This document shows positions 1,402 to 36,128 of a stretch of DNA of 44,813 nt, one piece after another (position 1 is the first letter of the stretch; each line of letters starts with the position of its first letter). Position numbers and translations under genes: made by a program. Below the pieces are notes generated by a model. The model saw nothing but the letters and a program-made list of their open reading frames with translations, did not search any database and was not told the origin of the DNA. This DNA comes from Rhodocyclaceae bacterium (GTDB lineage: Bacteria; Pseudomonadota; Gammaproteobacteria; Burkholderiales; CAIKXV01). Where the stretch lies: assembly GCA_020248265.1 (NCBI GenBank), contig JADCHX010000003.1, positions 1 to 44,813 of the forward strand, in the 5' to 3' direction.

Positions 1402-2709
1402 TCACTTTATCGGCAGCTCGACCGTAACCTTTAGCCCGCCGCCCTCGCGGTCTTCGAGCAGGACGCGCCCGCCATGCAGCCGCGCGATGCGGTCGACGAT
1501 CGCAAGCCCCAGTCCTGAACCCGGATCGGTGCGCGCGCTGCCGATGCGCTGGAACGGCTGCAGCATGCGTGCGCGCTGCGCCTCGGGGATGCCCGGCCCC
1601 CGATCGAGCACGCTGACCTGAACGCTCGACGCGCCGGTGCGTCCGGCACGGATCTCGACTGCGCTACCGCCGTGACGAAGGGCATTGTCGATGAGGTTCG
1701 ACAGCAGGCGCTGGAAAGACAGCGGACGCAGGCGGACCTTCGGCAGCTCCCCGGCCTGCGCGTGCACTGGCTGCCCGCGGCGTTCGTAGCGTTCGACGAC
1801 CGCGCGCACCGCCGCGCCAAGGTCGGTGTCGATCGTTGCCTCTTCGTTGCTGCCCTCGCGCACGTAGCTGAGGAACTGGTCGATGATCGCATCCATGTCC
1901 GCAATGTCCTGCACCATGCCCGCGCCGAGCGAGGCATCGCCCCCGGACGGCAGCATTTCGACGCCCAGCCGCAGTCGCGCGAGCGGCGTGCGCAGGTCGT
2001 GCGAGATGCCGGCCAGCAGGAGCTTGCGGTCCGCGTCGAGCGAGCGGACATCGCGCGCCATCTCGTTGAACGCACGCCCGAGCGCCGCCACTTCCTGCGG
2101 GCCCGACTCGGGCAGCGGCGGGGGCAGTTCGCCGCGGCCGATCGCGGCGGCCGCCGGCACTGCGGCACGCAGCGGTGCCGTGATCCGGTGCACGATCAGA
2201 TAGGCGCCGATGATCGAGAGCATCAGTACCAGCAGGCCCCAGGCGAACCACGTCCACGGGAACGGGTGCCGTTCGCGCGCCGGTGGCAGCTCGACCCAGA
2301 ACAGGTCCTCGTCGATGCGAAAGCTCACCCACAGTGCGCGCTCGCCGCCGCGGGCATCGTAGATGATCGTGTCTTCGCCGAGCCGCCGCCGCAGTTCGGC
2401 CACCACATGACCGATCACCGGACCGGTGCCGAGCGTGCCCTCGGGCAGTGAATCGTCGCCGGGATAGACGCGGATGCCCTCGGACTCGTTCAGTTCCGCC
2501 AGCAAAGCGCGGCGGCGCTCCGGTCGGGAGCCGATCAGTGCCGCCCGGGTGAGGTTGACCACGCTCGATACCCGCTCGGCGATCTGCCGCGCGCGCGGCT
2601 CCCGCTCGGACAGCGACAGCAGGGCGAACCAGGCCAGTTGCGACAGCACCAGCAGCGGGATCAGCATCGCGACCGTGCGCCAGAGCAGGCTGCGCGGCCA
2701 GGGGATCAT
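1402..2709 (-). CDS. envZ: Sensor histidine kinase EnvZ
   Basis: A 435-residue inner-membrane histidine kinase, partner of the OmpR regulator encoded 33 nt upstream. Residues about 13-31 and 155-174 form two membrane helices flanking a periplasmic sensor region. A HAMP region follows (about 172-225), then the H-box GISHDLRTPLARL with phospho-acceptor His237, the N-box NLIDNALRHG, the G1 box DRGPGIP and the G2 box GSGLGLAIV. Length and H-box fit the EnvZ subfamily, which senses envelope or osmotic state and both phosphorylates and dephosphorylates OmpR. The short ompR-envZ spacing points to one transcript. Confidence 0.9.
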   Translation of the reverse strand: MIPWPRSLLWRTVAMLIPLLVLSQLAWFALLSLSEREPRARQIAERVSSVVNLTRAALIGSRPERRRALLAELNESEGIRVYPGDDSLPEGTLGTGPVIGHVVAELRRRLGEDTIIYDARGGERALWVSFRIDEDLFWVELPPARERHPFPWTWFAWGLLVLMLSIIGAYLIVHRITAPLRAAVPAAAAIGRGELPPPLPESGPQEVAALGRAFNEMARDVRSLDADRKLLLAGISHDLRTPLARLRLGVEMLPSGGDASLGAGMVQDIADMDAIIDQFLSYVREGSNEEATIDTDLGAAVRAVVERYERRGQPVHAQAGELPKVRLRPLSFQRLLSNLIDNALRHGGSAVEIRAGRTGASSVQVSVLDRGPGIPEAQRARMLQPFQRIGSARTDPGSGLGLAIVDRIARLHGGRVLLEDREGGGLKVTVELPIK

Positions 2710-2742
2710 CGTGGCCCCGACGGCTGCGCCGCGCGCTGGCGG

Positions 2743-3477
2743 TCAGCGCGACGCATCGGGGACGAAAACGTAGCCGAAGCCCCAGACGGTCTGGATATAG
2801 CGCGGCTTCGCAGGATCTTCCTCGACCAGCTTGCGCAGGCGCGACACCTGCACGTCGATGCTGCGGTCGAACGGTTCCAGTTCGCGCCCGCGCGCGAGTT
2901 CCATGAGCTTGTCGCGCGAAAGCGGCGTGCCCGGGCTGGCGGCGAGCACCTTCAGCAGCGAGAATTCGCCCGTGGTCAGCGCCACGGATTTTCCGTCGCG
3001 GAGCAGGGTCCGGTTGCCGGTGTTCAGCGTGAAGGGGCCGAAGGTCACGTTGCCAGCCTGCGCATCGGGCGCGCCGGGGGGTGTTGTCGGGCCACGCCGA
3101 CGCAGCACCGCGTTGATCCGCGCGACCAGTTCGCGCGGGCTGAACGGCTTGGGCAGATAGTCGTCCGCGCCCAGTTCGAGGCCGACGATGCGGTCGACCT
3201 CGTCTCCCTTCGCGGTCAGCATCACGATCGGCAGCGTGGGCGAGGCCGCACGCAGCCGGCGGCAGATCGACAGGCCGTCCTCGCCCGGCAGCATCAGGTC
3301 GAGCACGACGAGATCGATCACGTTGCGTGCGAGCTGCTTGTCCATCGCCGCCCCGTCTGCCGCCACCTGCACCTGGAACCCCTGCTCGGTGAGGTAGCGG
3401 TTGAGCAGTTCGCGCAGCCGCACATCGTCGTCGACCACCAGCAGTCGCGTCTTGATCGTCTTGTCCATGGGTTGCAT
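2743..3477 (-). CDS. ompR: Response regulator OmpR
   Basis: A 244-residue two-domain DNA-binding response regulator. The receiver domain (about 11-125) has the acidic pocket VVDDD (16-18), phospho-acceptor Asp60 in VVLDLMLPGEDG and conserved Lys110 in LPKPF. The C-terminal winged helix (about 145-240) ends in the OmpR-type signature VWGFGYVFVPD. It is the first gene of the ompR-envZ pair. Start: ATG at 3477 gives MQPMDK; the second Met (3468) is also possible. Upstream at 3556-3570 is an AT-rich patch (AACATATTGTTACAA) with small inverted repeats, which could be an autoregulatory site, though this is a guess. Confidence 0.92.
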   Translation of the reverse strand: MQPMDKTIKTRLLVVDDDVRLRELLNRYLTEQGFQVQVAADGAAMDKQLARNVIDLVVLDLMLPGEDGLSICRRLRAASPTLPIVMLTAKGDEVDRIVGLELGADDYLPKPFSPRELVARINAVLRRRGPTTPPGAPDAQAGNVTFGPFTLNTGNRTLLRDGKSVALTTGEFSLLKVLAASPGTPLSRDKLMELARGRELEPFDRSIDVQVSRLRKLVEEDPAKPRYIQTVWGFGYVFVPDASR

Positions 3478-3555
3478 CGTAGCGCCACGCGGGGCAGGCG
3501 TGTGCGGGCGTCGTCCGCCGCTTGTAACCGGGCATGACCCCGGTACAGGGGGGCC

Positions 3556-3570
3556 AACATATTGTTACAA
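3556..3570. promoter_or_regulatory. AT-rich inverted-repeat patch in the ompR upstream region
   Basis: AACATATTGTT is a 4-bp inverted repeat around TAT and overlaps TTGTTACAA, a 4-bp repeat around T. It stands out in a GC-rich gap between two divergent genes, 79 nt upstream of ompR. Regulatory function is inferred only from base composition, symmetry and position. Confidence 0.25.
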
Positions 3571-3587
3571 AGGACCGCTTCCATCGC

Positions 3588-3616
3588 TTGGGTTGCGCCG
3601 TCAATCGCTCTACGAT
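3588..3616 (+). promoter_or_regulatory. Candidate sigma-70 promoter of the small secreted protein gene
   Basis: TTGGGT (3588-3593) and TACGAT (3611-3616) are separated by 17 nt and lie 29 nt upstream of the ATG at 3646. The spacing is ideal and both hexamers are moderate matches to the sigma-70 consensus. Confidence 0.35.
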
Positions 3617-3645
3617 CGGAGCCTGGGCATTCCTTCGGGGCAGGC

Positions 3646-3969
3646 ATGGTCGATCGGCAGCAGGCAACACGGGGTTTCGGGAGGCGTCCGGCGCTGCATG
3701 CGCTGTGCCTGCTGATGCTGCTCGTGCTGTTGCCGCCTGGGCGGGCGTCGGCTCAGCCTGCCGAGCCGCAAGGCGGGGCGCGCGAACGTTTCGAAGAGCG
3801 CCGGCAACGGCGCGACGACGCCCGCAATGATCACCGCCGCGACGAATTCCGGGAGCAGCGCCGTCGCCATCTCGAGGAACGGCGCGACCGCATGACGCCG
3901 GAAGAGCGACGCAGCCTTCGGCGCGACCTGCACGAGGCCGGACGCGACCTGTACCGCCAGGATCGTTGA
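3646..3969 (+). CDS. Small charged secreted protein, function unknown
   Basis: A 107-residue protein with an N-terminal signal sequence (hydrophobic LCLLMLLVLLPPG, then ASAQPAEP as a likely cleavage site). The mature part is almost entirely charged, rich in Arg, Glu and Asp, and is predicted helical, ending MTPEERRSLRRDLHEAGRDLY. The 'TPEERR' helix pattern recalls small periplasmic stress or chaperone-like proteins (Spy/CpxP-like), but I do not recognise a defined family. It diverges from ompR. I chose ATG 3646 because the upstream in-frame ATG (3562) would place a poor sequence before the signal peptide. Confidence 0.6.
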   Translation: MVDRQQATRGFGRRPALHALCLLMLLVLLPPGRASAQPAEPQGGARERFEERRQRRDDARNDHRRDEFREQRRRHLEERRDRMTPEERRSLRRDLHEAGRDLYRQDR

Positions 3970-10190: not shown

Positions 10191-11504
10191 TCAGTCGCCG
10201 ATCGGGGTGGGCGGGTTGCGCGCGGGGGCGCTACCCACGACCCGGCGCCGCACCCACCGGACGGTCATCGCCACCGCGAATGCCACCAGCGGAATCGCCA
10301 CTCCGGACACGATCGCCGCATCGATGCCGGTGCCGGCTGCCTCCAGGCCCTTCGCGGCATAGTCGATCAGCCCGACCACGTAGTAGCTGATCGCGACCAC
10401 GGACAGTCCTTCCACCGTCTGCTGCAGCCGCAGTTGCAGCCGTGCACGGCGGTCCATCGAGGCGAGCAGCGCCTGGTTCTGCTTCTCGCGCGCGATGCTC
10501 ACGCGCGTGGACAGCAGGCTGCTCGCGCGCGCGACCCGCTCTGACAGTTCCTGCAACCGGCTCGACAGCGAGGCACAGGTCGCCATGGCCGGCGACAGCC
10601 GCCGCGCCATGAATTCCTCGATGGTCTGCAGGCCGGTGATGCGGCGCTCGCGCAGTTCGCTGATGCGTGCGGTGACCAGCGCGTTGTACGCACGGCTGGC
10701 GCCGAACCGGTACTGGCTGGATGCGATCGCGCTCTCGACCTGCGCCGCGAGCTGGGTGAGTTCGCCGAGCAGCGTCTCGTCGCCGCGGTCCTCGTTCGCC
10801 ATTTCCTGGGTGAGCATGGCGAGCGAGCGCTCGATCTCGACCACGCGCGGCGATTCGCGCCGGGCGATCGGCAGCGCGAGCAGTGCCAGCACGCGGTAGG
10901 CCTCGATCTCGAACAGCCGCTGCATCATCCGCCCGGCCTGGTAGTCGGTGAATGCGCAGGACAGCATCAGGAAGCGCACGAACCCGTCGTGCTGGATCTT
11001 GAAGTCGGTGTACGCGAAGCCCGCGCCGTCGCCGATCGCCGCGCCGACGACCGCCGCCGAGCCGAAGAAATCCTGCAGCAGTGCCGGGTCGTCCGGCGTC
11101 TCGGGCGCGCGCATCACCTGTGCATGGGTCGCCACGATCACCCGGCCGGGGATGTCGGCCAGCCACTCCGGTGGCAGGTATTCGATCGCCGGCTGTGCGA
11201 ACGGACGGCTCGGCAGCCCGGGTACCAGCACGATGTAGGTGGAGAACTCGCCATGGCGCTCCCACTTCAGCTGGAACTCGCCGAACGGCACGCTGAACTG
11301 GTTCAGGTCTTCGCCCGGCGGCGAGCAGCCGAAGCGCTCGCACAGCGTGCGCAGGTGCGCGCGTTCGAGTTCTCGCTGTCCGGTTTCGACCTGGATCGCG
11401 AGGTAGGACCCGCGCACCGGGATGTCCAGCGGCTCGTAGGGTCGTGCATGCACCTCGTTCGCGGCGAGGAATCGGTCTGGAAGGTCGGGCGGCAGGCGGA
11501 TCAT
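10191..11504 (-). CDS. DUF3422 family membrane protein
   Basis: A 437-residue member of DUF3422, an uncharacterised proteobacterial family. Matching features are the N-terminal NEVHARPYEPL, the central DFKIQHDGFVRFLML and YQAGRMMQRLFEIEAYR, a long helical region, and two C-terminal membrane helices (about 365-420). The fold suggests an inner-membrane protein with a large cytoplasmic N-terminal part. I chose ATG 11504 (MIRLPPDLPDRF), close to the conserved N-terminus; an in-frame extension to 11633 overlaps the divergent alpha-2-macroglobulin gene. It heads a likely two-gene unit with the glycosyltransferase. Confidence 0.87.
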   Translation of the reverse strand: MIRLPPDLPDRFLAANEVHARPYEPLDIPVRGSYLAIQVETGQRELERAHLRTLCERFGCSPPGEDLNQFSVPFGEFQLKWERHGEFSTYIVLVPGLPSRPFAQPAIEYLPPEWLADIPGRVIVATHAQVMRAPETPDDPALLQDFFGSAAVVGAAIGDGAGFAYTDFKIQHDGFVRFLMLSCAFTDYQAGRMMQRLFEIEAYRVLALLALPIARRESPRVVEIERSLAMLTQEMANEDRGDETLLGELTQLAAQVESAIASSQYRFGASRAYNALVTARISELRERRITGLQTIEEFMARRLSPAMATCASLSSRLQELSERVARASSLLSTRVSIAREKQNQALLASMDRRARLQLRLQQTVEGLSVVAISYYVVGLIDYAAKGLEAAGTGIDAAIVSGVAIPLVAFAVAMTVRWVRRRVVGSAPARNPPTPIGD

Positions 11505-11596
11505 CGTTGGTATGTAGCCTGAAGGCATCGGTGGCCGCAAGCCCCACGATGGAAAACGGAGCGATACACTCGACCGTCCGATCGACTGACGGTTCC

Positions 11597-14500
11597 ATGA
11601 ATGGTTGCGGGATGACATTCCTCGCGCGGGCAAGGCTCCTGTGGCTGGCCGTGCTGGCGTCGGTTGCCGCTGCCGCTGCCGGCGCCACGCCGGTGTCGGT
11701 CGAGACCGCGCCGTCGGGTACGGTGAAGAACGTGCGCCAGTTCACCGCGCGCTTCTCCGAGCCGATGGTCCGGTTCGGCGATCCAAGGCTGGCCGATCCG
11801 ATGGAGGTGTCTTGCCCGGTGCCCGGGCGCGGCCGCTGGATCGATGACCGGACATGGGCCTACGACTTTGCTCGCGCGCTGCCCGGCGGCCTGCAGTGTC
11901 GGTTCACGCTGCGCGACGGACAACGCTCGGTCGCGGGGGCGCCGGTCGAGACGGGGCGTGCCGCCGGGTTTTCGACCGGGGGGCCGGCGATCGTCGCGGT
12001 GGCGCCGAGGGCCGGCGCCGGCGATGGCGACGGCCGGATCGGCGAAGACCAGGTGTTCGTCCTCGCGCTCGATGCGCATGCGACCACCGCCAGCGTGCTG
12101 GCCCATGCCTATTGCAGCGCCGACGGGATCAACGAACGCATCCCGGTGCGCATGGTCACCGGCAGCCTGCGCGCCGCCATCCTCGCGCGCAGCGAACTTG
12201 CGCCGGTCGGGGAGGTCGACAGTGGCGGGTTCGAGGCCTTTCTGGAGGCGAGTGCCGGCGCCGAGGCAAGGTCGCGCCGGCTGCTGGTCCGCTGCAGCCG
12301 CGAGTTGCCCGGCGACCGCGACGTGCGCCTGGTCTGGGGCAGGGGTATCGCGACGCCTGACGGCGTCGCCACCAGCGACGATCAGGTGCTGGCCTTCCGT
12401 ACCCGCCCGGCGTTCCGTGCGCGGTTCAGCTGCACCCGTGCGAACCAGGCCGCGCAGTGCATCCCGGTGCTGCCGATGCGCGTAGCGTTCACCGCCCCGA
12501 TCCCGGCCTCCATGGCCAAGGCGGTGACGCTGCGTGGGCCCGACGGGCGGCGCTACGCGCCCGTCCTGGAAGGCGAGGATCGGCCGGACGCAGGCGGGGA
12601 CGTGGCGGCAGCCGCCGCGCCGGAGGGCTTCGTCGGTCGCTTGCGCGGCTGGTGGTCGGCGCTCACCGGCCGGTTGCGCGCATCCTGGCGCGATCCCGCG
12701 GTCGACTGGGTGGAGTTCCGCGGGCCGTTTCAGGAGAACGCGTCGTTCACGCTGGAACTGCCGCCGCGGCTGCGCGATGACGCCGGGCGCCCGCTGGCCA
12801 ACGCGGACAGCTTTCCGCTCACGGTGCGCACCGACGAAGATCCGCCGCTGATCCGCTTCGCGGCGCGCTTCGGGCTGGTCGAGGCGAACGCGGGCGCGCT
12901 GCTGCCGGTCACGGTCCGCAACCTCGACGCCGGCAGCGGTGCCGACGGCACACAAGGCCGGCTGTTGCGCGTGGAGTCCCCGACGCCGCGGGAACTGGTC
13001 ATGTGGATGCAGCGCGCCAGCGAGCATGGCGGCGATGGCGGGGGGCCGGGCAAACAGTCGATCCTGCGCGGCGTGGAAGCTGCGCGCGACCTTTCGCTGC
13101 CGCGGACCACCGGTCCGCGCGAGTTCGAGGTGATCGGCATCCCGCTGCAGCGGCCGGGCTTCTATGTGGTCGAGTTCGCCAGCCGCCGGCTCGGCGCGGC
13201 ACTGCACGACACGCCGGAGGCGCAGCGGCAGCGCGAGGCGATCGACCGCGCCGCGGCCGAGGGACGGCCGCGCCCGTCCTTCGCCCCTCCGGCGCCGTCG
13301 CGCGACCCGTACTACGTGCCAGCCACGGCACTGGTGACCAACCTGGTCGCCCACTTCAAGCGGGGCCGCGAGGGGTCGCTGGTCTGGGTGACCTCGCTCG
13401 ACCGCGGCGAACCGGTGGAAGGGGCGCGTGTCCGGGTGCTCGATTGCGACGGCCGTACCTATCACGAAGGCATGAGCGATCGTGATGGACTGGTGCGGGT
13501 GGAGGTGGCATTGCCCACGGACGACCTGCTGCCGGGCTGCGAAAGCCGCTACGACCGGCGCCTGATGGTGATGGCTTCGCGGGGCGAGGATTTCACGTTC
13601 ACGATGACCGGCTGGGACGACGGCATCGCGCCTTGGCGGTTCAACCTCCCGACCGGCGACGCCGACGATCCCTACTCGGTGCGTGCCGTGCTCGACCGGT
13701 CTCTCCTGCGGGCCGGCGAGACGCTGCACCTGAAGCTGTTCGCGCGCGAGCGCCGGCGCACCGGCTTCGCGCTGCCGCCGCCCGCGCTGCTCGTGCCGAC
13801 GGTGGTGATCGAACACCTCGGCAGCGAACAGAAGTACGAGGTGCCGGTGCAGTGGGAGCCGCGTGGCGGCAGCGCACTCGGCACCTGGGATGTCCCGAAG
13901 GACGCCCGCCTCGGCGCGTACCGGATCGTCGCCCGCGAGCGACTGCCGGCCCGCGGCGGCGGCAGCCGCGAGCGTACCCGCGAACTCGGCGAGTTCAGGG
14001 TCGAACAGTTCCGGCTGCCGACGATGCGCGCGGCCGTGCGCCCGCCCGCGCTGCCGCTGGTCGGCGCATCGGAGGCCTCGGTCGACGTGCAACTCGCCTA
14101 CCTGGCGGGCGGGCCTGCCGGCGGGGCTGCGGTGCGCCTGCGTACCGCAGCGATGCCGCGCACGATGGGCTTCCCGGGCTACGAAGGCTTCGTGTTCGCC
14201 AATGGTGATGTGGCGGAGGGCGTGATCGGCAGCCGTACCGAGGTCGACCTGCTGGACGAACTGGATGGCGGCGCAGCCGAGCCGGACAGCCGCCGTGTGC
14301 GCGCCGACGACGATGCGCTGAAGGTGGTCGGCCTGCAGCGTGCGACGCTCGATGCCGCCGGCGGGGCCCGGCTGCGCGTGGCGGGCCTGCCTGCAGCCGC
14401 GATCCCTCAGGACCTGCTGTTCGAGCTCGAGTACCGCGACGCCAACGGCGAGACGCTCACCGCGAGCGCGCGCTCGGCCTGGCTTCCCTCGGCCGTGGTG

Positions 14501-17500
14501 GTCGGCCTGCGCGCCGATGACTGGGCCCGCGCGCGCGACCGCGTGAAGATGGAGGCGGTCGTGGTCGATCCGTCCGGAAAGCCGATGGCCGGGCTGCCGG
14601 TCACGGTGGACATGTTCCGGCGCGAGACCTTCTCGCACCGGCGCAGGCTGCTCGGGGGCTTCTATGCCTTCGAGAGCTACACGGAGACGTCGCGGCTGGG
14701 CACGCTCTGCAGCGCGCGCACCGATGCCGCCGGGCGCCTGTCCTGCGAAGGCAAGCCGCCGGCCAGCGGCAACCTGATCCTGCGTGCACGCGCGGTGGAC
14801 GCAGCAGGCCGGCCGAGCATCGGGCATCGCGAGGTCTGGATCGCCGGCGGCGAGCCCTGGTGGTTCGGCCAGCAGGACAGTGATCGCATGGACGTGCTGC
14901 CCGAAGCGCCGCGCTATGAGCCGGGGCAGACCGCGCGCTTCCAGGTGCGCATGCCGTTCCGCTCCGCCACCGTGCTGGTCACCCATGAACGCGAGGGCGT
15001 GGTCGATGCCGTCGTGCGCCGGCTGGCCGGCGATTCGCCGGTGATCGAGGTGCCGGTGCTGGCACGGCATGCCCCGAACATGTTCGTGTCGGTGCTTGCC
15101 GTGCGCGGGCGGGCGGGCGAGGTGCAGCCGACCGCGACCGTGGACCTCGGCAAGCCGGCGTTCCGGATGGGCATCGGCGAGATCGCGGTCGGCTGGCGCG
15201 CGCACGAACTGAAGGTGCAGGTCCGTCCGGAGCGCGAGGTCTACCGCGTGCGCGAGCGCGCGCGGGTGAACATCCGGGTGACGCGCGCCGACGGTTCCAT
15301 CCCGCCGGTGGGCAGCGAGATCGCGCTGGCCGCTGTCGATGAAGCATTGCTCGAACTGGCGCCGAACGATACGTGGGCACTGTTGCAGGCCATGATGGGC
15401 CGGCGCGGCATCGAGGTGCAGACCGCCACCGCCCAGATGCATGTCGTCGGCCGCCGCCACTTCGGCAAGAAGGCGGTGCTGTCTGGCGGTGGCGGCGGCC
15501 GGCAGTCCGCGCGCGAACTGTTCGACACGCTGCTCGCATGGCGCGGACGGGTCGCGCTCGACGCGAATGGTGAAGCGGTGGTCGAAGTGCCGCTGAACGA
15601 TTCGCTCAGTGCGTTCCGGATCGTGGCCATCGCCTCTGCCGGCGACGCGATGGGCGCCGGCCTGTTCGGAACCGGCTCGGCCAGCCTGCGCACGACGCAG
15701 GACCTGATGCTGCTGTCCTCGCTGCCTGCCCTTGCGCGCGAGGGTGACCGGTTCGACGCCGAGGTGGTGGTGCGCAATGCGTCGGAGCGCGCGATCGAGG
15801 TCATGGTTTCGGCCTCCGTCACGCCCGCGCCGGGCGGCGGCCCACCGGGTGCCGGCGCACGCCCGTCGCCTGCGGCGCCGATGCCGCTCGCCGCGCAAGC
15901 CCTGTCGCTGGCACCGGGGGAGGCGAAGCCGGCACGCTGGGCGTTCCAGGTGCCGGCCGGTGTCGATCTGCTCGCCTGGGAGATCGCCGCCGGCGAGCGC
16001 GGTGCGGCGAGCGCCGACCGGCTGCGCGTCGCGCAGCGGATCGTGCCGGCCGTGCCGGTGCGCACCCTGCAGGCCACCCTCGTGCAACTCGCCGCGCCAG
16101 GCGAAGCGATCGTGGTGCCGGTGCAGCGTCCGGCCGACGCGCTGCCCGGGCGCGGCGCGATCGAGGTGTCGCTGGCGCGTACCCTCGGCGGCGACCTGCG
16201 CGGGGTGCGCGAGTACATGCAGCAGTACCCGTACTCCTGCCTCGAACAGCAGGGCTCGCGCGCGATCGCGCTCGGCGACCGCGCGGGCTGGGATCGGCTG
16301 ATGGGTTCTCTGCCGGCCTGGCTCGACCGCGACGGGTTCGCCCGCTACTTTCCGTCGATGCGCGAAGGCAGCGACGTGCTGACCAGCTACCTGCTCACCG
16401 TTTCGCACGAAGCGGGATGGCCGATCCCGAAGGCCGCTCGCGACACGATGGCCGACGCGCTTCGCCGCTTCGTCGAAGGTCGCGTCTCGCGCGCATCGGA
16501 GATGCCCGCGGCCGACCTGCTGCTGCGCAAGCTCGCCGCACTCGATGCGCTGGCGCGCAGCGGCGTCGAGATCGAGCCGCGCTGGCTCGAGGCGTTGTCG
16601 ATCGCCCCGCAGTCGTGGCCGACCTCCGCGCTGCTCGACTGGCAGTCGCTGCTGCGCCGGGCGACGAAGCTGCCCGACCGTGAGCGCCGGCTGGAGGAGG
16701 CCGCGCGCATCCTGCGCGCACGCCTGACGATGCAGGGCACGGTGATGGGTTTCTCCACCGAGAAGACCGACCAGCTCTGGTGGCTGATGGTGTCCGGCGA
16801 CGTCAACGCCAACCGGATGCTGATCGCGGCGCTGGACGATCCGCGTGCCGCCGATGAGGCCGGTGCCCAGGACCTCGCGCGCCTCGCACGCGGTGCGCTC
16901 TCGCGCCAGCAGCGCGGCCGCTGGAACACCACGGTCGCCAATGCCTGGGGCGTGCTGGCGCTGGCCAGGTTCGCCGCGCGCTTCGAGGCGCAGCCGGTGG
17001 CCGGCCGCACGCTGGCGTCCACCGGCGGCGCCGCGGCACCGGTGTCCGTCGACTGGTCGCTGCCGGATGCAGTGCCCGGCACCGGCCGCGAGGCTTCGCT
17101 GCCCTGGCCGGAGGGCGCGACCGGCTCGCTGATGCTGCGCCAGGACGGCAGCGGGCGCCCGTGGGCGACCGTGCGCAGCCGTGCCGCGGTGCCGCTGCGC
17201 GAACGCCTCGACGCGGGTTTCCGCGTCGAACGCGAGGTCAGTGCCGTCCAGCAGAAGGTTGCCGGCCGCTGGTCGGTCGGCGACCTGATGCGGGTACGGC
17301 TGACGGTCGATGCGCAGGCGGACATGACCTGGGTGGTGCTGAGCGACCCGGTACCCGCCGGTGCGACGATCATCGGTTCCGGCCTCGGCGGACAGTCCTC
17401 GCTCGTGGCCGAGGCGCGCGGCGCAGGGCGGGGCCGGGTGGCCGAACCGGTGGCGCCGGTGTTCGAGGAGCGTTCGTTCGAAGGCTGGCGCGGCTACTGG

Positions 17501-17653
17501 CGCTACGTGCCGCGCGGCGGTTTCTCCGCCGAGTACGTGGTGCGGCTGAACCAGGCCGGTCGCTTCGAACTGCCGGCCACCCGCGTCGAAGCGATGTATG
17601 CGCCTGAAGTATTCGGCGAGCGGCCCAACCTGGCGTTCGAAGTCGCGCGATGA
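11597..17653 (+). CDS. Bacterial alpha-2-macroglobulin with thioester
   Basis: A protein of about 2,018 residues with a signal sequence (FLARARLLWLAVLASVAAAA), hence periplasmic. The macroglobulin repeats are followed by the thioester motif CLEQ (Cys1548-Gln1551) in YPYSCLEQQ, then the alpha-helical thioester domain and a C-terminal receptor-like domain. Bacterial alpha-2-macroglobulins trap foreign proteases by covalent thioester reaction and are often encoded next to PBP1C, as here (4-nt ATGA overlap). At about 2,000 residues it is longer than E. coli YfhM (about 1,650). No lipobox is seen, so it is probably not a lipoprotein. ATG 11597 or 11612 could be the start. Confidence 0.9.
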   Translation: MNGCGMTFLARARLLWLAVLASVAAAAAGATPVSVETAPSGTVKNVRQFTARFSEPMVRFGDPRLADPMEVSCPVPGRGRWIDDRTWAYDFARALPGGLQCRFTLRDGQRSVAGAPVETGRAAGFSTGGPAIVAVAPRAGAGDGDGRIGEDQVFVLALDAHATTASVLAHAYCSADGINERIPVRMVTGSLRAAILARSELAPVGEVDSGGFEAFLEASAGAEARSRRLLVRCSRELPGDRDVRLVWGRGIATPDGVATSDDQVLAFRTRPAFRARFSCTRANQAAQCIPVLPMRVAFTAPIPASMAKAVTLRGPDGRRYAPVLEGEDRPDAGGDVAAAAAPEGFVGRLRGWWSALTGRLRASWRDPAVDWVEFRGPFQENASFTLELPPRLRDDAGRPLANADSFPLTVRTDEDPPLIRFAARFGLVEANAGALLPVTVRNLDAGSGADGTQGRLLRVESPTPRELVMWMQRASEHGGDGGGPGKQSILRGVEAARDLSLPRTTGPREFEVIGIPLQRPGFYVVEFASRRLGAALHDTPEAQRQREAIDRAAAEGRPRPSFAPPAPSRDPYYVPATALVTNLVAHFKRGREGSLVWVTSLDRGEPVEGARVRVLDCDGRTYHEGMSDRDGLVRVEVALPTDDLLPGCESRYDRRLMVMASRGEDFTFTMTGWDDGIAPWRFNLPTGDADDPYSVRAVLDRSLLRAGETLHLKLFARERRRTGFALPPPALLVPTVVIEHLGSEQKYEVPVQWEPRGGSALGTWDVPKDARLGAYRIVARERLPARGGGSRERTRELGEFRVEQFRLPTMRAAVRPPALPLVGASEASVDVQLAYLAGGPAGGAAVRLRTAAMPRTMGFPGYEGFVFANGDVAEGVIGSRTEVDLLDELDGGAAEPDSRRVRADDDALKVVGLQRATLDAAGGARLRVAGLPAAAIPQDLLFELEYRDANGETLTASARSAWLPSAVVVGLRADDWARARDRVKMEAVVVDPSGKPMAGLPVTVDMFRRETFSHRRRLLGGFYAFESYTETSRLGTLCSARTDAAGRLSCEGKPPASGNLILRARAVDAAGRPSIGHREVWIAGGEPWWFGQQDSDRMDVLPEAPRYEPGQTARFQVRMPFRSATVLVTHEREGVVDAVVRRLAGDSPVIEVPVLARHAPNMFVSVLAVRGRAGEVQPTATVDLGKPAFRMGIGEIAVGWRAHELKVQVRPEREVYRVRERARVNIRVTRADGSIPPVGSEIALAAVDEALLELAPNDTWALLQAMMGRRGIEVQTATAQMHVVGRRHFGKKAVLSGGGGGRQSARELFDTLLAWRGRVALDANGEAVVEVPLNDSLSAFRIVAIASAGDAMGAGLFGTGSASLRTTQDLMLLSSLPALAREGDRFDAEVVVRNASERAIEVMVSASVTPAPGGGPPGAGARPSPAAPMPLAAQALSLAPGEAKPARWAFQVPAGVDLLAWEIAAGERGAASADRLRVAQRIVPAVPVRTLQATLVQLAAPGEAIVVPVQRPADALPGRGAIEVSLARTLGGDLRGVREYMQQYPYSCLEQQGSRAIALGDRAGWDRLMGSLPAWLDRDGFARYFPSMREGSDVLTSYLLTVSHEAGWPIPKAARDTMADALRRFVEGRVSRASEMPAADLLLRKLAALDALARSGVEIEPRWLEALSIAPQSWPTSALLDWQSLLRRATKLPDRERRLEEAARILRARLTMQGTVMGFSTEKTDQLWWLMVSGDVNANRMLIAALDDPRAADEAGAQDLARLARGALSRQQRGRWNTTVANAWGVLALARFAARFEAQPVAGRTLASTGGAAAPVSVDWSLPDAVPGTGREASLPWPEGATGSLMLRQDGSGRPWATVRSRAAVPLRERLDAGFRVEREVSAVQQKVAGRWSVGDLMRVRLTVDAQADMTWVVLSDPVPAGATIIGSGLGGQSSLVAEARGAGRGRVAEPVAPVFEERSFEGWRGYWRYVPRGGFSAEYVVRLNQAGRFELPATRVEAMYAPEVFGERPNLAFEVAR

Positions 17654-19890
17654 CGGCGCTGCGGCGCGTGGTGCTTCCGGCCAACGCGGTTTCGCTGCTG
17701 CTGGCCGGCCTGTTCCTGCTGTCATGGGCGGTGGTGCCGTCGTTCGAGCAGGTACGCGCCGATACGCTGCCGAGCGACCGCTGGCTGCTCGACCGCCATG
17801 GTGCGCCGCTGCAGGTGCAGCGGGTCGACGAGCACATGCGCCGGCTCGGCTGGACGCCGCTCGATCAGGTGTCGCCCGCATTGAAACGGGCAGTGATCGC
17901 CACCGAGGATCGCCGCTTCGCGCATCACCCGGGCGTCGATCTGCTGGCTATCGGCGCCATCGTGAAGTCTGCGCTGCAGAGGCCGACGGCGGATGCCGCG
18001 GCTCCGGTCCGCCGCCATGGCATCCGCGGTGCGAGCACGATCACGATGCAGCTGGCAGGGCTGCTCGACCCTGCGCTGGCGCCGGTGCAGGGGCGCCGTT
18101 CGATCCCGCAGAAGCTGCGCCAGGCCGCGCTGGCGCTGGCGCTCGGGCTGCACTGGCAACGCGATCAGGTGTTCGAGGCCTACCTGAACCGGGTGTCGTT
18201 TCGCGGCGAACTGCAGGGCGTCGAGGCCGCCGCCCAGGGGCTGTTCGGAAAGTCACCTTCGGCGCTGGACGAAGCCGAGTCGTGGCTGCTGGCGGCGCTG
18301 ATCGCGCGGCCGAACGCGTTGCCTGCACTGGTCGCCGCGCGCGCCTGTCGCCTCGCGCGCAGCGCTGGCGCCACGGCCGGCGCCGACGCAATGCCCGGCG
18401 GCGGCAGCCAGTCGTGCACGCGGTTCGAGGCACTGGCCGCCGCGCGGCTGTCGATGCCGCCGTCGATCGCGCCGCCGGTGGCGCTCGCGCCGCATGCCGC
18501 GCGGCTGCTGTTCGCGCAGGAGAGCGGCGCCCGCCGGCAGCCGCCGCTGGTGTCTTCGCTCGACCGCGACCTGCAGCGGTTTGCGACCGACGCGCTGCGT
18601 GCGCAGCTCGAAGCGATCGCCGGTCGCAACGTACGCGACGGTGCGCTGCTGGTGGTCGACAATCGCACCGGCGAAGTGCTCGCGTACGTGGGCAACGCGG
18701 GCGAGCGGTCCAGCGCGCGTTTCGTCGACGGCGTATCGGCGCCGCGGCAGGCCGGTTCGACGCTGAAGCCGTTCCTCTACGAGCTGGCGATCGAGCAGCG
18801 GCTGCTGACCGCGGCATCGCTGGTGGATGACTCGCCGGTCGACCTGGTCGCACCCAACGGGCTCTACGTTCCGAAGAACTATGACCGGCAGTTCACCGGC
18901 TGGGTGAGCCTGCGCACCGCGCTGGCCGGTTCGCTGAACGTGCCTGCGGTGCGTACGTTGATGCTGGTCGGTCCGGAGCCGTTCGCCGACCGCCTGCGCG
19001 CGCTGGGCTTCGCGGATGTCAAGCGCAGTGGGGACTACTACGGATACTCGCTGGCGCTCGGATCGGCCGAGGTGCGGCTGTCGCAACTGGTCAATGCGTT
19101 TCGAACGCTGGCCAATGGCGGTATCGCCTCGCCGCTGGTGATGCGACCCGGCGAGGCCGCACCCGACAGCGTGCGCCGCGTGATGGCGCCGGCTGCTGCC
19201 TTCATCGTCTCCGACGTACTGGCCGACCGCACCGCAGGGGCGCGCACTTTCGGTCTCGCCAGCGCGCTGGCCACGCGCGGCTGGAGCGCGGTGAAGACCG
19301 GCACCAGCAAGGACATGCGCGACAACTGGTGCATCGGTTTCTCCGGCCGGTACACGGTCGGCGTGTGGGTCGGCAACTTCGACGGCTCGCCGATGCACGA
19401 CGTGTCCGGCACGACCGGTGCCGCGCCGGTCTGGCAGGAGGTGATGGACTACCTGCATCGCAACCTGCCGTCGGACGCCCCGGTGCCGCCCGGCGGTCTG
19501 GTGCGGCAGTCGACCGACCCGGCGGCGGACCGGCCGGAGTGGTTCATCGCCGGTACCGAACTGGACCGTGTGCAGCGAGCCCCCGTCCGCGGTGGTGCCC
19601 CGCGCATCGTGTACCCGGGTGCCGGCATCATCGTCGCGATCGATCCGGACATCCCGGCGCCGCATCAGCGCCTGCTGTTCGCCGCCGGGCCGGGCGCGCA
19701 GGGCCTGCACTGGCGCATCGGTGGCCGGCGGCTGGCGCCGGCGGACCGTCCGTATCCCTGGCAACCGGTCCCGGGCAACCACCGGCTGCAACTGGTCGAT
19801 GCGCAGGATCGCGTGATCGACGAGGTACGATTCGAAGTACGCGGCGCGGCGCAGACGGGGTCCGCCGCTGCGCCGGTGTCACCCGGCTAG
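17650..19890 (+). CDS. pbpC: Penicillin-binding protein 1C
   Basis: A 746-residue bifunctional peptidoglycan synthase. One N-terminal membrane helix (about 10-30) is followed by a GT51 glycosyltransferase domain with catalytic Glu86 ([14 protein letters not shown]) and [12 protein letters not shown], then a transpeptidase domain with Ser370 and Lys373 (AGSTLKPF), the SLN motif at Ser428 and KTGTS at Lys549. The last 90 residues are the PBP1C C-terminal (BiPBP_C) domain. The start overlaps the alpha-2-macroglobulin stop (ATGA). The pairing suggests that the macroglobulin guards the periplasm when the wall is breached and PBP1C repairs it, which is the accepted model for this gene pair. Confidence 0.93.
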
Positions 19891-32537: not shown

Positions 32538-33389
32538 TCAGCCTCGGGCCAGCACGCGCGCGATGAAGGCCTTCACCATCGCATGCGCGCGGTCGGTCTG
32601 CGGCCCCGGGTCGGCCACCCAGATGTGGCCGCAGCCCTCGAAGACCTCGCAGGTGCAGTCGCCGCCGGCCTTGCGGTATGACTCGGCGAACTTCACCTGG
32701 ATCTCCGGCAGCACGTTGTCGTCGTCGCCGCCCTGCATCACGAGCATGGGTGGCAGGGCGACCTTCTCGCCGCGGTCGAGGATCTCCTGCGGGTTGCCTT
32801 CGTGGATCGACCCGGGCGGGCTCCAGTAGATCGACGACCGGCGCACCATGTCCTCCACCCCGCGCCGCTCGGCGTTGAGATGGCGTGCATGCGGGTCGCT
32901 GATCGGCGAGCGCGTGGCCACGTAGCGCAGGCTGGCGTCGATCCCGGGATGGCCTTCCAGCGGCAGCGCAGCATAGCGCGCATCCGCCGGACGCATTCCG
33001 ATCAGCTGGGCGAGGTGCCCGCCGCTCGAACTGCCGAGCACGCCGACGGTGGACGGGTCGCCCTTCCACTGCTCACAGTTGGCCTTCAGCCAGCGCACGC
33101 CGTAGTGCGCGTCCTGCACCGAGGCGGGGTAGGGCGCTTCCGGCGCGAGGGTCAGGTCGATCGCCACCACCAGCAGGCCGCTGGCGGCGAGCGCCTCGTC
33201 CATCGGCACGTTGGCGAAGCGGTCCTTGTTGTTCCAGGCACCGCCGTGCAGGTCGAGCACGACCGGGAACGGGCCGATGCCCTGCGGCTGGTAGATGCGC
33301 GCCATCAGCTGGCGCTTCGGCGTCCTGCGGAACTCGACATCCCAGGTCCGTACTTCGAAGGTCGCATCCGGGTCGTAGCGCGTGGCCAT
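32538..33389 (-). CDS. Alpha/beta hydrolase, copy 1
   Basis: A 283-residue hydrolase resembling the dienelactone hydrolase/BD-FAE-like esterases. The oxyanion-hole motif is DLHGGAWNNKDR (about 47-57), the nucleophile is Ser121 in GSSSGG, and the acid and His are probably in GGDDDNVLPE and GCGHIWV. No signal sequence, so cytoplasmic. It is a tandem paralogue of the next gene upstream (33468-34319): same length and the same motif positions. Confidence 0.85.
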   Translation of the reverse strand: MATRYDPDATFEVRTWDVEFRRTPKRQLMARIYQPQGIGPFPVVLDLHGGAWNNKDRFANVPMDEALAASGLLVVAIDLTLAPEAPYPASVQDAHYGVRWLKANCEQWKGDPSTVGVLGSSSGGHLAQLIGMRPADARYAALPLEGHPGIDASLRYVATRSPISDPHARHLNAERRGVEDMVRRSSIYWSPPGSIHEGNPQEILDRGEKVALPPMLVMQGGDDDNVLPEIQVKFAESYRKAGGDCTCEVFEGCGHIWVADPGPQTDRAHAMVKAFIARVLARG

Positions 33390-33467: not shown

Positions 33468-34319
33468 TCAGGACGACAGCGATCGTGCGATGAAAGCCTT
33501 CACCACCGCTATCGCGCGATCGGTCTGCGGACCCGGATCGTCGACCCAGGCATGGTCGCAGCCTTCGAAGATCTCCAGGTCGCAGATACCGCCTGCATCC
33601 CGGTAGGATTGCGCGAAGCGTTCCTGCAGCCCGGGCAGCACGTTGTCGTCGGCGCCGCCCTGCATCACCAGCATCGGCGGTACCTCGACCGGCTCGCCGC
33701 GGTCGAGGATGGCCTGCGGGTTCGCCTCCGAGATCGTGTCCCACGGCTGGAAGTAGCGCAGGCTGTTGTCGATCATCTCGGTCCAGTCGCGCTGCTTCGC
33801 ATGGTCGTAGCGCGCCTGCGGGTCGCTGATCGGCGAGCGGGTCGCGACATAGCGCACGCCGCCGGCATCGAGGGCAGGGGCTTCGGCCAGCGGCAGCGCG
33901 CCGTACACCGGCTTGTGCGGCTGCATCGCGATCAGCTGCGCGATGTGGCCGCCGCTGGAGCTGCCGACGATGCCGAGCAGGGACGGATCGGCATTCCACT
34001 CGCGGGCATGGGCCTTCAGCCAGCGCACGCCCAGATGGGCATCCTGCACGTTGGCAGGGTACGGTGCCTCGGGCGCACGGGTCAGGTCGATCGACACCAG
34101 CAGCAGGCCGCTGGCGGCGAGCGCATGGGCCATGATCGGATTGTGCAGCCGGTCCTTGTTGTTCCAGGCGCCGCCGTGCAGGTGCAGCACCGGCGGGAAC
34201 GGGCCGGGTCCTTCCGGCTGGTAGATGCGCGCGAGCAGCGTGCGCGTCGGGGTCTTGCGGAACTCGATGTCCCGGCAGGCAACCGCATGGCGCGCGGCGG
34301 GATCGTACGGTGCAGCCAT
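33468..34319 (-). CDS. Alpha/beta hydrolase, copy 2
   Basis: A 283-residue paralogue of hydrolase copy 1. It shares HLHGGAWNNKDR, the nucleophile Ser121 in GSSSGGH, the block PEAPYPANVQDAHLGVRWLKA, and GGADDNVLPG and CDHAWVDDPGPQTDRA near the C-terminus. The two differ mostly in the lid region (about 150-200), which usually sets substrate choice, so divergence after duplication is likely. The ATG follows an AAGGAGG run 5 nt upstream. Confidence 0.85.
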   Translation of the reverse strand: MAAPYDPAARHAVACRDIEFRKTPTRTLLARIYQPEGPGPFPPVLHLHGGAWNNKDRLHNPIMAHALAASGLLLVSIDLTRAPEAPYPANVQDAHLGVRWLKAHAREWNADPSLLGIVGSSSGGHIAQLIAMQPHKPVYGALPLAEAPALDAGGVRYVATRSPISDPQARYDHAKQRDWTEMIDNSLRYFQPWDTISEANPQAILDRGEPVEVPPMLVMQGGADDNVLPGLQERFAQSYRDAGGICDLEIFEGCDHAWVDDPGPQTDRAIAVVKAFIARSLSS

Positions 34320-34422: not shown

Positions 34423-34884
34423 TCAGATCGCGGCGAGCCTCGCCAGCAGGTCGGCGCTCTCCGGGACGGTACCCGGTGCGTAGACATGCGAGTGTCGGAT
34501 CACGCCGGTTGCGTCGACGATGAACACCGAACGCGCATCCATCCCGCGTTCATCGTTGAACACGCCATAGGCGCGGCCGACGCTGCCATGCGGCCAGAAG
34601 TCCGAAAGCAGCGGAAACGGCAGGCCACCGAGCGATTCCATCCACGCCTTCAGGCTGGGGACGGGGTCGGCACTGATCTGCAGGATTTCTGCGTCGAGTG
34701 CCTGGAATTGTGCGTAGTTCTCACGGAACCCGCTCACTTGATTCTTTCACCCACCGGTAAATGCGAAGGGCAGGAAGGTCACCACGGCGCGCCGGCCGCG
34801 GAAGCTGGCGAGCGTGAGCGTGGCACCGGTGTGCGATGCGAGCGAGAAATCCGGCGCGGCTGTGCCGGGTTGAAGAGCGGCCAT
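34423..34884 (-). CDS. AhpE-like peroxiredoxin with in-frame TGA (probable selenoprotein)
   Basis: A 153-residue thioredoxin-fold peroxidase if the TGA at 34749-34747 is read as selenocysteine (residue 46). The site reads PxxxTxx-TGA, with Pro39 and Thr43 in place, so the TGA replaces the peroxidatic cysteine. Downstream in the same frame come FPLLSDFWPHGSVGRAYGVFN, nearly the AhpE consensus, and Arg118, the active-site arginine. No cysteine codon occurs in the gene. A hairpin follows the TGA (34709-34737). ATG 34884 has AAGGAG 8 nt upstream. Reading TGA as stop gives a 45-residue useless fragment; the alternative is a pseudogene by one substitution, which the intact remainder argues against. 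Expression would need selA, selB, selC and selD elsewhere in the genome. Confidence 0.8.
34709..34737 (-). promoter_or_regulatory. SECIS-like hairpin after the in-frame TGA
   Basis: On the minus strand the transcript after TGA has 9 nt, then a stem-loop. Apical stem GGUUC/GAACU (5 bp with one G-U), a bulged A, GCG/CGC (3 bp), an A-A mismatch and GU/CA (2 bp) make 10 bp. The loop is CGUGA, with G as its second base, and begins 22 nt after the UGA. This fits the known bacterial SECIS rules (loop 3-14 nt, G in the first two loop positions, 16-37 nt from UGA). It would recruit SelB. Confidence 0.65.
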
Positions 34885-34994
34885 GGACGATGCTCCTTGG
34901 GCGGGTCGCGGTGCGGGAAATTGCACCGTGCCGCCATCGTAGCGCAGTCCGCGTTCGTCGGGCGCAGGCCGCCGCCCACCGACCCCCGCGCGGG

Positions 34995-35963
34995 TCAGGC
35001 GCCGCCTGCGGGCATCACCAGGCCGAGCTTGCGCTCGACCGCTCGCACATAGGCCAGGTGCGCGAGCGCGATGTCCTGGCTGGCCATGCCCTGGGTGACG
35101 ATCAGTGCGCGCTGCTTTGGATCGGTGCGGCCGGGATGCTTGCCACCGACGACCTCGGCCACCGTCGCATCGACCCAGCCCGGACCTTCCTCGCCGAACA
35201 GTTCGAGCAGTTCCTTCTGCAGCTGCTCGCGGCTGTCGACGACGAACAGGTCGGCCTGCTCGGCGTAGTCGCGGCCCGGTTCGGCGGTGTCGAGGGTCGC
35301 CACGACCGCGCCGGGCGCGATCCACGCCGCCTCGATCAGCGCCTTGCCGCTGTTGGTGGCGGTGAGCACCAGGTCGGCCCCGGAGACCGCAGCCTCGATG
35401 CTGTCCATCGCGCGGGCGGGGATCTTGTAGTGCGACTCGGCGCGGCTTGCCAGCGCCTCGCGGGTATGCGGCCGGCGCGAAACGACGCGCACCTCGCGCA
35501 GGTTGAAGAGCTTCGAGTAGTACTCGAGCGCGGTGGTCGCGAGGTTGCCCGCCCCGACCAGGGCCAGTACGCCGGCATCGGGCAGCGCGAGCTTGCGCGC
35601 AGCCATCACGATAGAGGCGACAGTGCGCTGCGCATAGCTCCAGGTCTCGTCGACGAAGGCCAGCGTGCGCGAGGATTCGGCATCGACCACCACCACGTAG
35701 CGGGTCGCATTGCTCGAGTTCTCTTCCGTCGACAGATGCGCCACCACGCGGAAGCCGGCGATCGACAGCGGGTCGAGGATGCAGGCCTTCAGGTGGTAGT
35801 GGTTCTCGTGCACGTCGCGCATGTTCATGTTGCGCGGCGACGGCCAGCGGATCTTCCCCTCTGCGTCCCACGCCACGACGCGTTCGATCTGCTCGATCAC
35901 GTCCTGCGAGGTGAGCAGCGACTGGCACTGGCTGGAGGTCAGGTAGATGGGCGGGTTCTGCAT
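34995..35963 (-). CDS. Ornithine cyclodeaminase / mu-crystallin family protein
   Basis: A 322-residue NAD(P)-dependent enzyme. The N-terminal half carries the substrate arm (IRWPSPRNMNM, HLKACILDP), and the dinucleotide site is VLALVGAGNLA (about 151-161) followed by VSRRPHTREA. The family includes ornithine cyclodeaminase, alanine dehydrogenase, ketimine reductases and tauropine-type enzymes, so the substrate is not settled. It lies 110 nt before the peroxiredoxin gene on the same strand and may share its transcript. Confidence 0.85.
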   Translation of the reverse strand: MQNPPIYLTSSQCQSLLTSQDVIEQIERVVAWDAEGKIRWPSPRNMNMRDVHENHYHLKACILDPLSIAGFRVVAHLSTEENSSNATRYVVVVDAESSRTLAFVDETWSYAQRTVASIVMAARKLALPDAGVLALVGAGNLATTALEYYSKLFNLREVRVVSRRPHTREALASRAESHYKIPARAMDSIEAAVSGADLVLTATNSGKALIEAAWIAPGAVVATLDTAEPGRDYAEQADLFVVDSREQLQKELLELFGEEGPGWVDATVAEVVGGKHPGRTDPKQRALIVTQGMASQDIALAHLAYVRAVERKLGLVMPAGGA

Positions 35964-36128
35964 GGTCGGGCTCCGGCGGAGATGTACTCAACCCCGGAGT
36001 CTACCGTCAAGCCTCCAGGGCCATGCTATCTTTCCGTGATCACACAATGCAGTCACACCCGCCCTGCCGGCGCCGGCTGGCGATCGAACGGATCCGCGAA
36101 GATGCGGAAGGACAGGAGCGCGCTGGGC

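Follow-up and report, generated by a model that had tools for sequence, protein, structure and literature searches.

The gene and its surroundings

The window, which is the whole 44,813-nt stretch of a Rhodocyclaceae contig that was analysed, carries on its minus strand a frame (34884..34423) that begins with ATG and holds a single internal in-frame stop, the TGA at 34749-34747, which is codon 46 (Table 1). The sequence-only reading had described this frame, broken only by the TGA and preceded by AAGGAG 8 nt upstream of the ATG, and the description was confirmed. That ATG is the predicted start, placed through the alignment of relatives; because the frame is also open upstream of it, the mechanical ORF list gave a TTG-started frame of 414 aa (34747..35991), followed by a GTG-started frame of 104 aa (34423..34737). 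Mechanical gene calling splits such a gene, as had been foreseen, but into these two products and not with the 45-codon fragment that had been expected. TGA is an ordinary stop nearby, since all four of the neighbour genes examined end in it.

Table 1. Features of the locus and of the selenium-decoding genes in the same genome (C12 and C2 are contigs of that genome)
Feature	Position	Strand	Basis or remark
Putative selenocysteine (Sec) peroxiredoxin gene, AhpE-like, 153 residues with Sec46	34423..34884	-	Frame, Pfam, relatives, selection; TGA terminator 34425-34423
Codon 46, in-frame TGA, proposed Sec codon at the peroxidatic position	34747..34749	-	TGA in 15/17 matching order-sample genomes and 22/22 collection loci
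Ribosome-binding site AAGGAG, 8 nt before ATG	34893..34898	-	Sequence
Proposed bacterial SECIS hairpin (5' arm, CGUGA loop, 3' arm)	34712..34734	-	Loop starts 21 nt after UGA
Ornithine cyclodeaminase/mu-crystallin family gene	34995..35963	-	Upstream, same strand; PF02423, 120.5 bits
Alpha/beta hydrolase (BD-FAE/Abhydrolase_3)	33468..34319	-	Downstream, same strand; Pfam
Second alpha/beta hydrolase copy	32538..33389	-	Pfam
tRNA-Sec	C12:28078-28169		72.9 bits (gathering 47); anticodon UCA
selB	C12:28247-30142		Beside tRNA-Sec; 432 bits
selA	C12:30168-31502		After selB; 580 bits
selD	C2:222109-223050		413 bits; own in-frame TGA, context GGGUGCK

Read through the TGA to its full 153 residues, the protein is without any Cys. 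It scored 117 bits against the Pfam AhpC-TSA model (gathering 26), and its top solved-structure matches were the Rv2238c/MT2298 entries (E about 1e-34), which we take to be AhpE; the Cys of their PLAFTGIC, presumably the peroxidatic one, was aligned with the TGA codon. Pro39, Thr43 and residue 46 fit PxxxTxxC, and FPLLSDFWPHG, AYGVFN and Arg118 are present in the window protein. Across 19 Sec rows, in which the site motif is PFAFTGGU, Pro39, Thr43 and Arg118 are invariant. The sequence marks of the peroxiredoxin superfamily, namely the PxxxTxxC/U pocket, the catalytic Arg and the AhpC-TSA domain, were all found, together with a mark of bacterial selenoproteins, an in-frame UGA aligned with the catalytic Cys of homologues.

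Both halves of the gene flanking the TGA are under purifying selection. When the window gene was compared with eight relatives (L037, L039-L041 and L043-L046), dN was lower than dS in every one of the 16 comparisons, with dN of 0.01-0.28 and dS of 0.05-1.9 for codons 1-45, and dN of 0.01-0.18 and dS of 0.10-1.03 for codons 47-153.

The cyclodeaminase and/or the alpha/beta hydrolases also adjoin the gene in L037-L043 (82-97% protein identity), and this neighbourhood is absent from L044-L058 apart from weaker matches of 32-47%. The setting had been called unusual for a selenoprotein; it recurs in seven of the 22 collection loci and not as such in the other 15, and is immaterial to the Sec assignment. 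Ten chosen neighbour ORFs in five relatives (L044, L045, L048, L050 and L053) include genes for transporters or receptors, a gamma-glutamyltranspeptidase, an arylmalonate decarboxylase-like protein, a TPP enzyme and a short-chain dehydrogenase, and two of the ten have no Pfam match. No redoxin or redox partner was found among these ten ORFs or beside the window gene, and a search for sigma-70 promoter and terminator patterns found none. At 283 aa each, the two hydrolases do not differ in length, and both match the same Pfam families, apparently the outcome of a duplication. Elsewhere in the window (11444-17881), very long open frames overlap on both strands (2069 aa on the plus and 2126 aa on the minus strand), and probably at most one of them is a gene.

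Relatives of the gene

To the window protein, 17 genomes in an order sample of 200 (window genome included) gave a match at a threshold of 1e-20; 15 of them carry TGA at codon 46, and the matches in the other two are different peroxiredoxins with Cys. In one genome (G131) the TGA-carrying gene is split across two contigs. A scan of a titled genome collection with peptide patterns that had been written with Cys yielded 22 loci, in partial overlap with the order sample, and the codon was TGA in all 22. By title, most hits are metagenome bins of Betaproteobacteria or Burkholderiales. Two bins labelled Bordetella parapertussis (L038 and L057) carry the gene with high identity to environmental Betaproteobacteria, and these labels look like bin mislabels.

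That the TGA occupies the peroxidatic position in PxxxTxxC, as originally proposed, was upheld, and the same column has TGA in relatives down to the most divergent Sec lineage (G137 and G175), at 44-49% identity to the window protein, so the pattern is not chance. TGC or TGT at this codon in sister strains, beside other disabling mutations, had been named as the sign of a pseudogene; every sister genome examined carries TGA, none TGC or TGT, and the halves of the gene are under selection as described above.

Relatives with Cys were found further away. Among plasmid records, 23 matched and seven were read at the site, with Cys in 7/7. A phylum-wide profile search matched at least 262 of 398 genomes; among the matches listed, 30 loci were inspected, of which one is the window gene, 28 have Cys at the site and one (L098) gave no motif match. 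The 28 comprise 27 proteins of PrxQ/BCP look and the AhpE-like protein of genome G158 (L077). In L087, from the same search, the single counted TGA is the end of its frame, and the window genome itself has seven other AhpC-TSA-family stretches, with an internal stop in none.

Actinobacterial Cys relatives reach 43-45% identity, which puts them no further away than the most divergent Sec rows, and for this reason it is the tree that carries the statement that the clade is Sec-only. The 18 Sec rows in it form one clade with support of 99/94, while the deeper joins, that of this clade to the actinobacterial rows among them, have no clear support; M. tuberculosis AhpE was outside the row set.

The proposed downstream hairpin and the selenium-decoding genes

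The RNA stretch past the UGA was studied in 40 candidates (the window and L019-L057), 35 of which had a long enough Sec stretch; 25 distinct sequences were left after duplicates and two divergent rows had been dropped. In these, codons 52-57 read GGG TTC CGT G(A/C)G AAC TAC, the last being CTC in one sequence, and all 1622 of the 1622 same-residue pairs were identical, i.e. there was zero synonymous change. Elsewhere in the gene, identical same-residue pairs numbered 2724/5215 over 25 upstream codons and 11564/19553 over codons 59-150. The synonymously frozen stretch extends to about codon 61, and it includes GGG and CGT, both of them minor codons by a count over four neighbouring genes.

The loop of the proposed hairpin is CGUGA or CGUGC and lies 21 bases past the UGA, or 24 in L032/L033. 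This divergent lineage has other amino acids, another stem and a shift of one codon, and has retained the CGUGC loop. With the register of the alignment chosen by the shared loop, 5/5 core pairs were possible in each of the 10 distinct rows, which stand for 21 sequences, and four pairs had changed on both sides; neither value was reached in 500 shuffles, and no slid register equalled it. The two-sided changes all stem from one split, that of L032/L033, which are identical over the aligned stretch. The consensus fold of the 23-base alignment was the proposed hairpin (covariation term -0.87), whereas the consensus of 26 sequences in codon register, at -3.4 kcal/mol, had a covariation term of +0.1, which amounts to none.

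Folding of single sequences was less clear. The hairpin was the minimum-energy fold in 12 of the 26 distinct 51-nt sequences (window included) and in 19/26 at 43 nt, another fold being the minimum in 14/26 and 7/26, respectively. The folding energy does not stand out, with z between -2.64 and +0.06 over the seven sequences examined and at -1.12 for the window, and a search of Rfam found no family that matches the hairpin. The element thus has what is looked for in a bacterial SECIS, a hairpin just past the UGA with G or GU in a small apical loop, subject to these folding caveats; the case for it is made by the synonymous invariance and the one compensated split, as folding energy alone gives no support. 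By eye, the hairpins predicted after the selD TGA in the same genomes have GGU or GUU in the loop in nine of 11 distinct sequences (one has GGC and one another fold), and those predicted after the TGA of Sec formate dehydrogenases have GU in or near the loop.

The check suggested at the outset, a search of the same genome for selA, selB, selD and tRNA-Sec, turned up all four (Table 1) in an assembly of 4.55 Mb in 33 contigs that is 98% complete, so the gene set expected of a bacterium with selenoproteins (selA, selB, selC and selD) stands in one genome. A selA match over the cut-off was present in 15/15 genomes with the TGA gene and in 56 of the 200 order-sample genomes. The hypergeometric probability of this co-occurrence was 1e-9 when genomes were counted and 0.006 when genera were (five genera with the TGA gene; 40/108 genera with any selA match at 0.001), and the latter is the safer figure because the genomes are related. 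Divergent from selD in locus L059, an ORF at 2189-3709 (+) has the P-loop GRTGCGKS and a first half that is rhodanese-like by eye. Its product is perhaps a tRNA 2-selenouridine synthase (SelU/MnmH), a candidate picked out by eye from the sequence; if so, this genome may also put selenium into tRNA.

Other users of Sec were looked for in the 15 Sec-peroxiredoxin genomes. A formate dehydrogenase-N alpha gene with TGA was found in four (G144, G169, G005 and G090); in the other 11 no Sec formate dehydrogenase-N alpha was detected over the cut-off, and five of the 11, including the window genome, had no formate dehydrogenase-N alpha match at 1e-40. A TIGR01591 search (E up to 1e-60) showed an internal stop in none of 41 rows from 16 genomes, and of 14 loci read at the site, 13 had a Cys codon and L111 gave no match; this search alone does not exclude Sec enzymes, because the four formate dehydrogenase-N genes escaped it. 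SelD has a TGA in 13/15 of the genomes. In G137 and G175, which carry the most divergent Sec peroxiredoxin, SelD (L148 and L149) is the Cys form although selA is present, and the peroxiredoxin is the only selenoprotein found among the families tested (peroxiredoxin, formate dehydrogenase and SelD). In the window genome it is one of two found among the same families; several genomes are drafts, and further Sec genes may exist beyond these families.

Proposed mechanism, alternatives and known systems

The proposal that the TGA encodes Sec is supported by the sel gene set, the conserved TGA, the purifying selection and the compensated hairpin. As a prediction from sequence, it is very probable that the UGA codes for Sec. 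We propose that SelB would bring Sec-tRNA(UCA) to the UGA when the CGUG-loop hairpin is presented at the ribosome, and that, given available selenium, translation would yield the full 153-residue protein. With Pro39, Thr43 and Arg118 holding it in place, Sec46 would then attack H2O2 or an organic peroxide and be turned into a selenenic acid. This would need resolution from outside, because the protein has no Cys, most likely by a low-molecular-weight thiol (glutathione) together with glutaredoxin or thioredoxin, by analogy with mycobacterial AhpE. On three Sphingomonas/Sphingobium plasmids a Cys AhpE-like gene stands directly before a glutaredoxin-family gene, with an in-frame TAG in two of the three copies; as a pointer to the reductant, this neighbour is a hint and no more. 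In the two plasmid loci concerned (L153 and L154; match 601-1059) the TAG comes shortly after the peroxidatic Cys and no CDS is listed, the next gene (glutaredoxin) being listed as one. For the whole mechanism, a one-Sec AhpE-type peroxiredoxin with SECIS-directed UGA decoding and peroxide reduction, our probability from these sequences is roughly 0.8; the figure is lower than that for Sec at the UGA because the folding results are weak and because a role as sensor overlaps with the mechanism.

A nonsense mutation or an assembly error in an AhpE-like gene would account for a codon that is a normal stop in the window genome and for a gene that the ORF list splits. The same codon is TGA, however, in the 15 order-sample genomes and in all 22 loci of the overlapping collection set, selection has acted on both sides of it, and no other stop was seen in eight relatives checked codon by codon; conservation refutes this explanation unless a systematic error is common to the relatives, and we give it next to no credence. 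It is scarcely more credible that two proteins without Sec are made, an N-terminal peptide of 45 residues and a C-terminal protein of 104 residues that starts from the GTG at codon 50. The GTG-started ORF does exist, but this GTG is found in only nine of the 25 distinct sequences, the break would fall on the catalytic residue of a peroxiredoxin, and neither the co-occurring sel genes nor the frozen stretch directly past the UGA is what such a pair would call for. Readthrough can in general be promoted by sequences that follow a stop, and the downstream stretch might be such a generic stimulator, with a near-cognate Trp, Cys or Arg inserted; the Sec assignment is itself drawn from sequence. Against this stand the catalytic Cys position, the tRNA-Sec with selA and selB in the genome, and the finding that in the 200-genome sample the genomes with the UGA gene are a subset of those with selA, while a Trp or an Arg there should inactivate the peroxidatic site, so that only a slim chance is left to it. 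We rejected all three of these explanations because of the conservation, the selection and the co-occurrence with the sel genes.

A selenoprotein that acts as a thiol/selenol oxidoreductase or a peroxide sensor, and not as a bulk peroxidase, is unlikely rather than negligible. A single redox residue, the want of a redox partner among the neighbours scanned and the seven further AhpC-TSA-family stretches of the genome would suit it, but the invariant pocket of Pro39, Thr43 and Arg118 favours peroxide reduction.

If the Sec peroxidase is what the sequences suggest, this AhpE-type enzyme may be a main reason why these bacteria keep the selenium-decoding machinery. That this branch of environmental Betaproteobacteria retains the Sec system mostly, in some genomes even exclusively, for this enzyme and not for formate dehydrogenase is a tentative reading with slightly less than an even chance, put forward because the clade is seen only with Sec and because the settings differ while the UGA and the downstream element stay. 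A putative peroxidase clade, seen with Sec alone, in genomes often without a detectable Sec formate dehydrogenase is a testable case of why a costly decoding trait is kept.

In the accessible text of a 2006 survey, Betaproteobacteria have one selenoprotein family, FdhA being the only selenoprotein there (PMC1794560). Sec peroxiredoxins (TxxU) are an established kind according to the portions available of PMC13188914, PMC1088965 and PMC9312934, and the latter two, as lists of selenoproteomes, file 'Peroxiredoxin (Prx)' under COG1225 Bcp. The available part of the peroxiredoxin atlas (PMC5302317) nowhere uses the terms selenium, Sec-containing or TxxU, and among the open-access matches listed no paper on a Sec AhpE was apparent by title or abstract start. 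What looks new, therefore, is not Sec in a peroxiredoxin but an AhpE-type clade in Betaproteobacteria that is seen only with Sec, and also its weight as a Sec client, with 11/15 genomes lacking a detected Sec formate dehydrogenase and two of these 11 having a Cys SelD too.

The known Sec peroxiredoxins, such as that of Eubacterium acidaminophilum, share the Pfam family and have Sec at the same peroxidatic PxxxTxxU position (available text of PMC13188914 and PMC1088965), whereas the window protein scores 82.7 against the NCBIfam PrxU model (NF040737; cut-off 270). The thiol peroxidase Prx-SUH (NF045827) is likewise a Sec-containing peroxiredoxin-like protein, but its motif is given as CxxU in the accessible part of PMC13188914 and the window protein reaches 31.4 bits against a cut-off of 298; no NCBIfam model reached its cut-off with the window protein. 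Genome G158 and plasmids of Sphingomonas, Bosea and Halosolutus encode redoxins of the same broad AhpE-like group (37-39% identity), yet these have Cys, in the motif PxDWSPxC, and form a separate clade, and the plasmid genes, unlike the Sec gene, have a glutaredoxin or DsbA-family gene directly after them. The actinobacterial proteins of Nonomuraea and Tsukamurella plasmid records resemble the window protein in PLAF(T/S)GTC and in LLSDFWPHG or VLSDFWPHG, but have Cys and fall outside the Sec clade.

The AhpE subfamily is marked by a PxAF(T/S)xxC dyad and by Val or Ile directly before the peroxidatic residue, as given in the available part of PMC5302317. The Sec rows have the dyad (PFAFTGGU) but Gly45 in place of Val/Ile, and two actinobacterial AhpE-like rows have Thr there. 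The original assignment to the AhpE family holds as a supported affinity, through FPLLSDFWPHG, AYGVFN and Arg118, with the one signature position at variance. M. tuberculosis AhpE (Rv2238c) shares the PxAFTxxC/U pocket, FPLLSDFWPHG and the active-site Arg, and it differs in having Cys, not Sec, and Ile, not Gly, before the peroxidatic residue. The mycobacterial enzyme is a one-Cys peroxidase, against one Sec here, and mycoredoxin-1 or mycothiol reduces its sulfenic acid (available text of PMC4360819). The window protein would be its natural Sec counterpart, through which the chemistry of Sec and Cys could be compared in a one-residue peroxidase.
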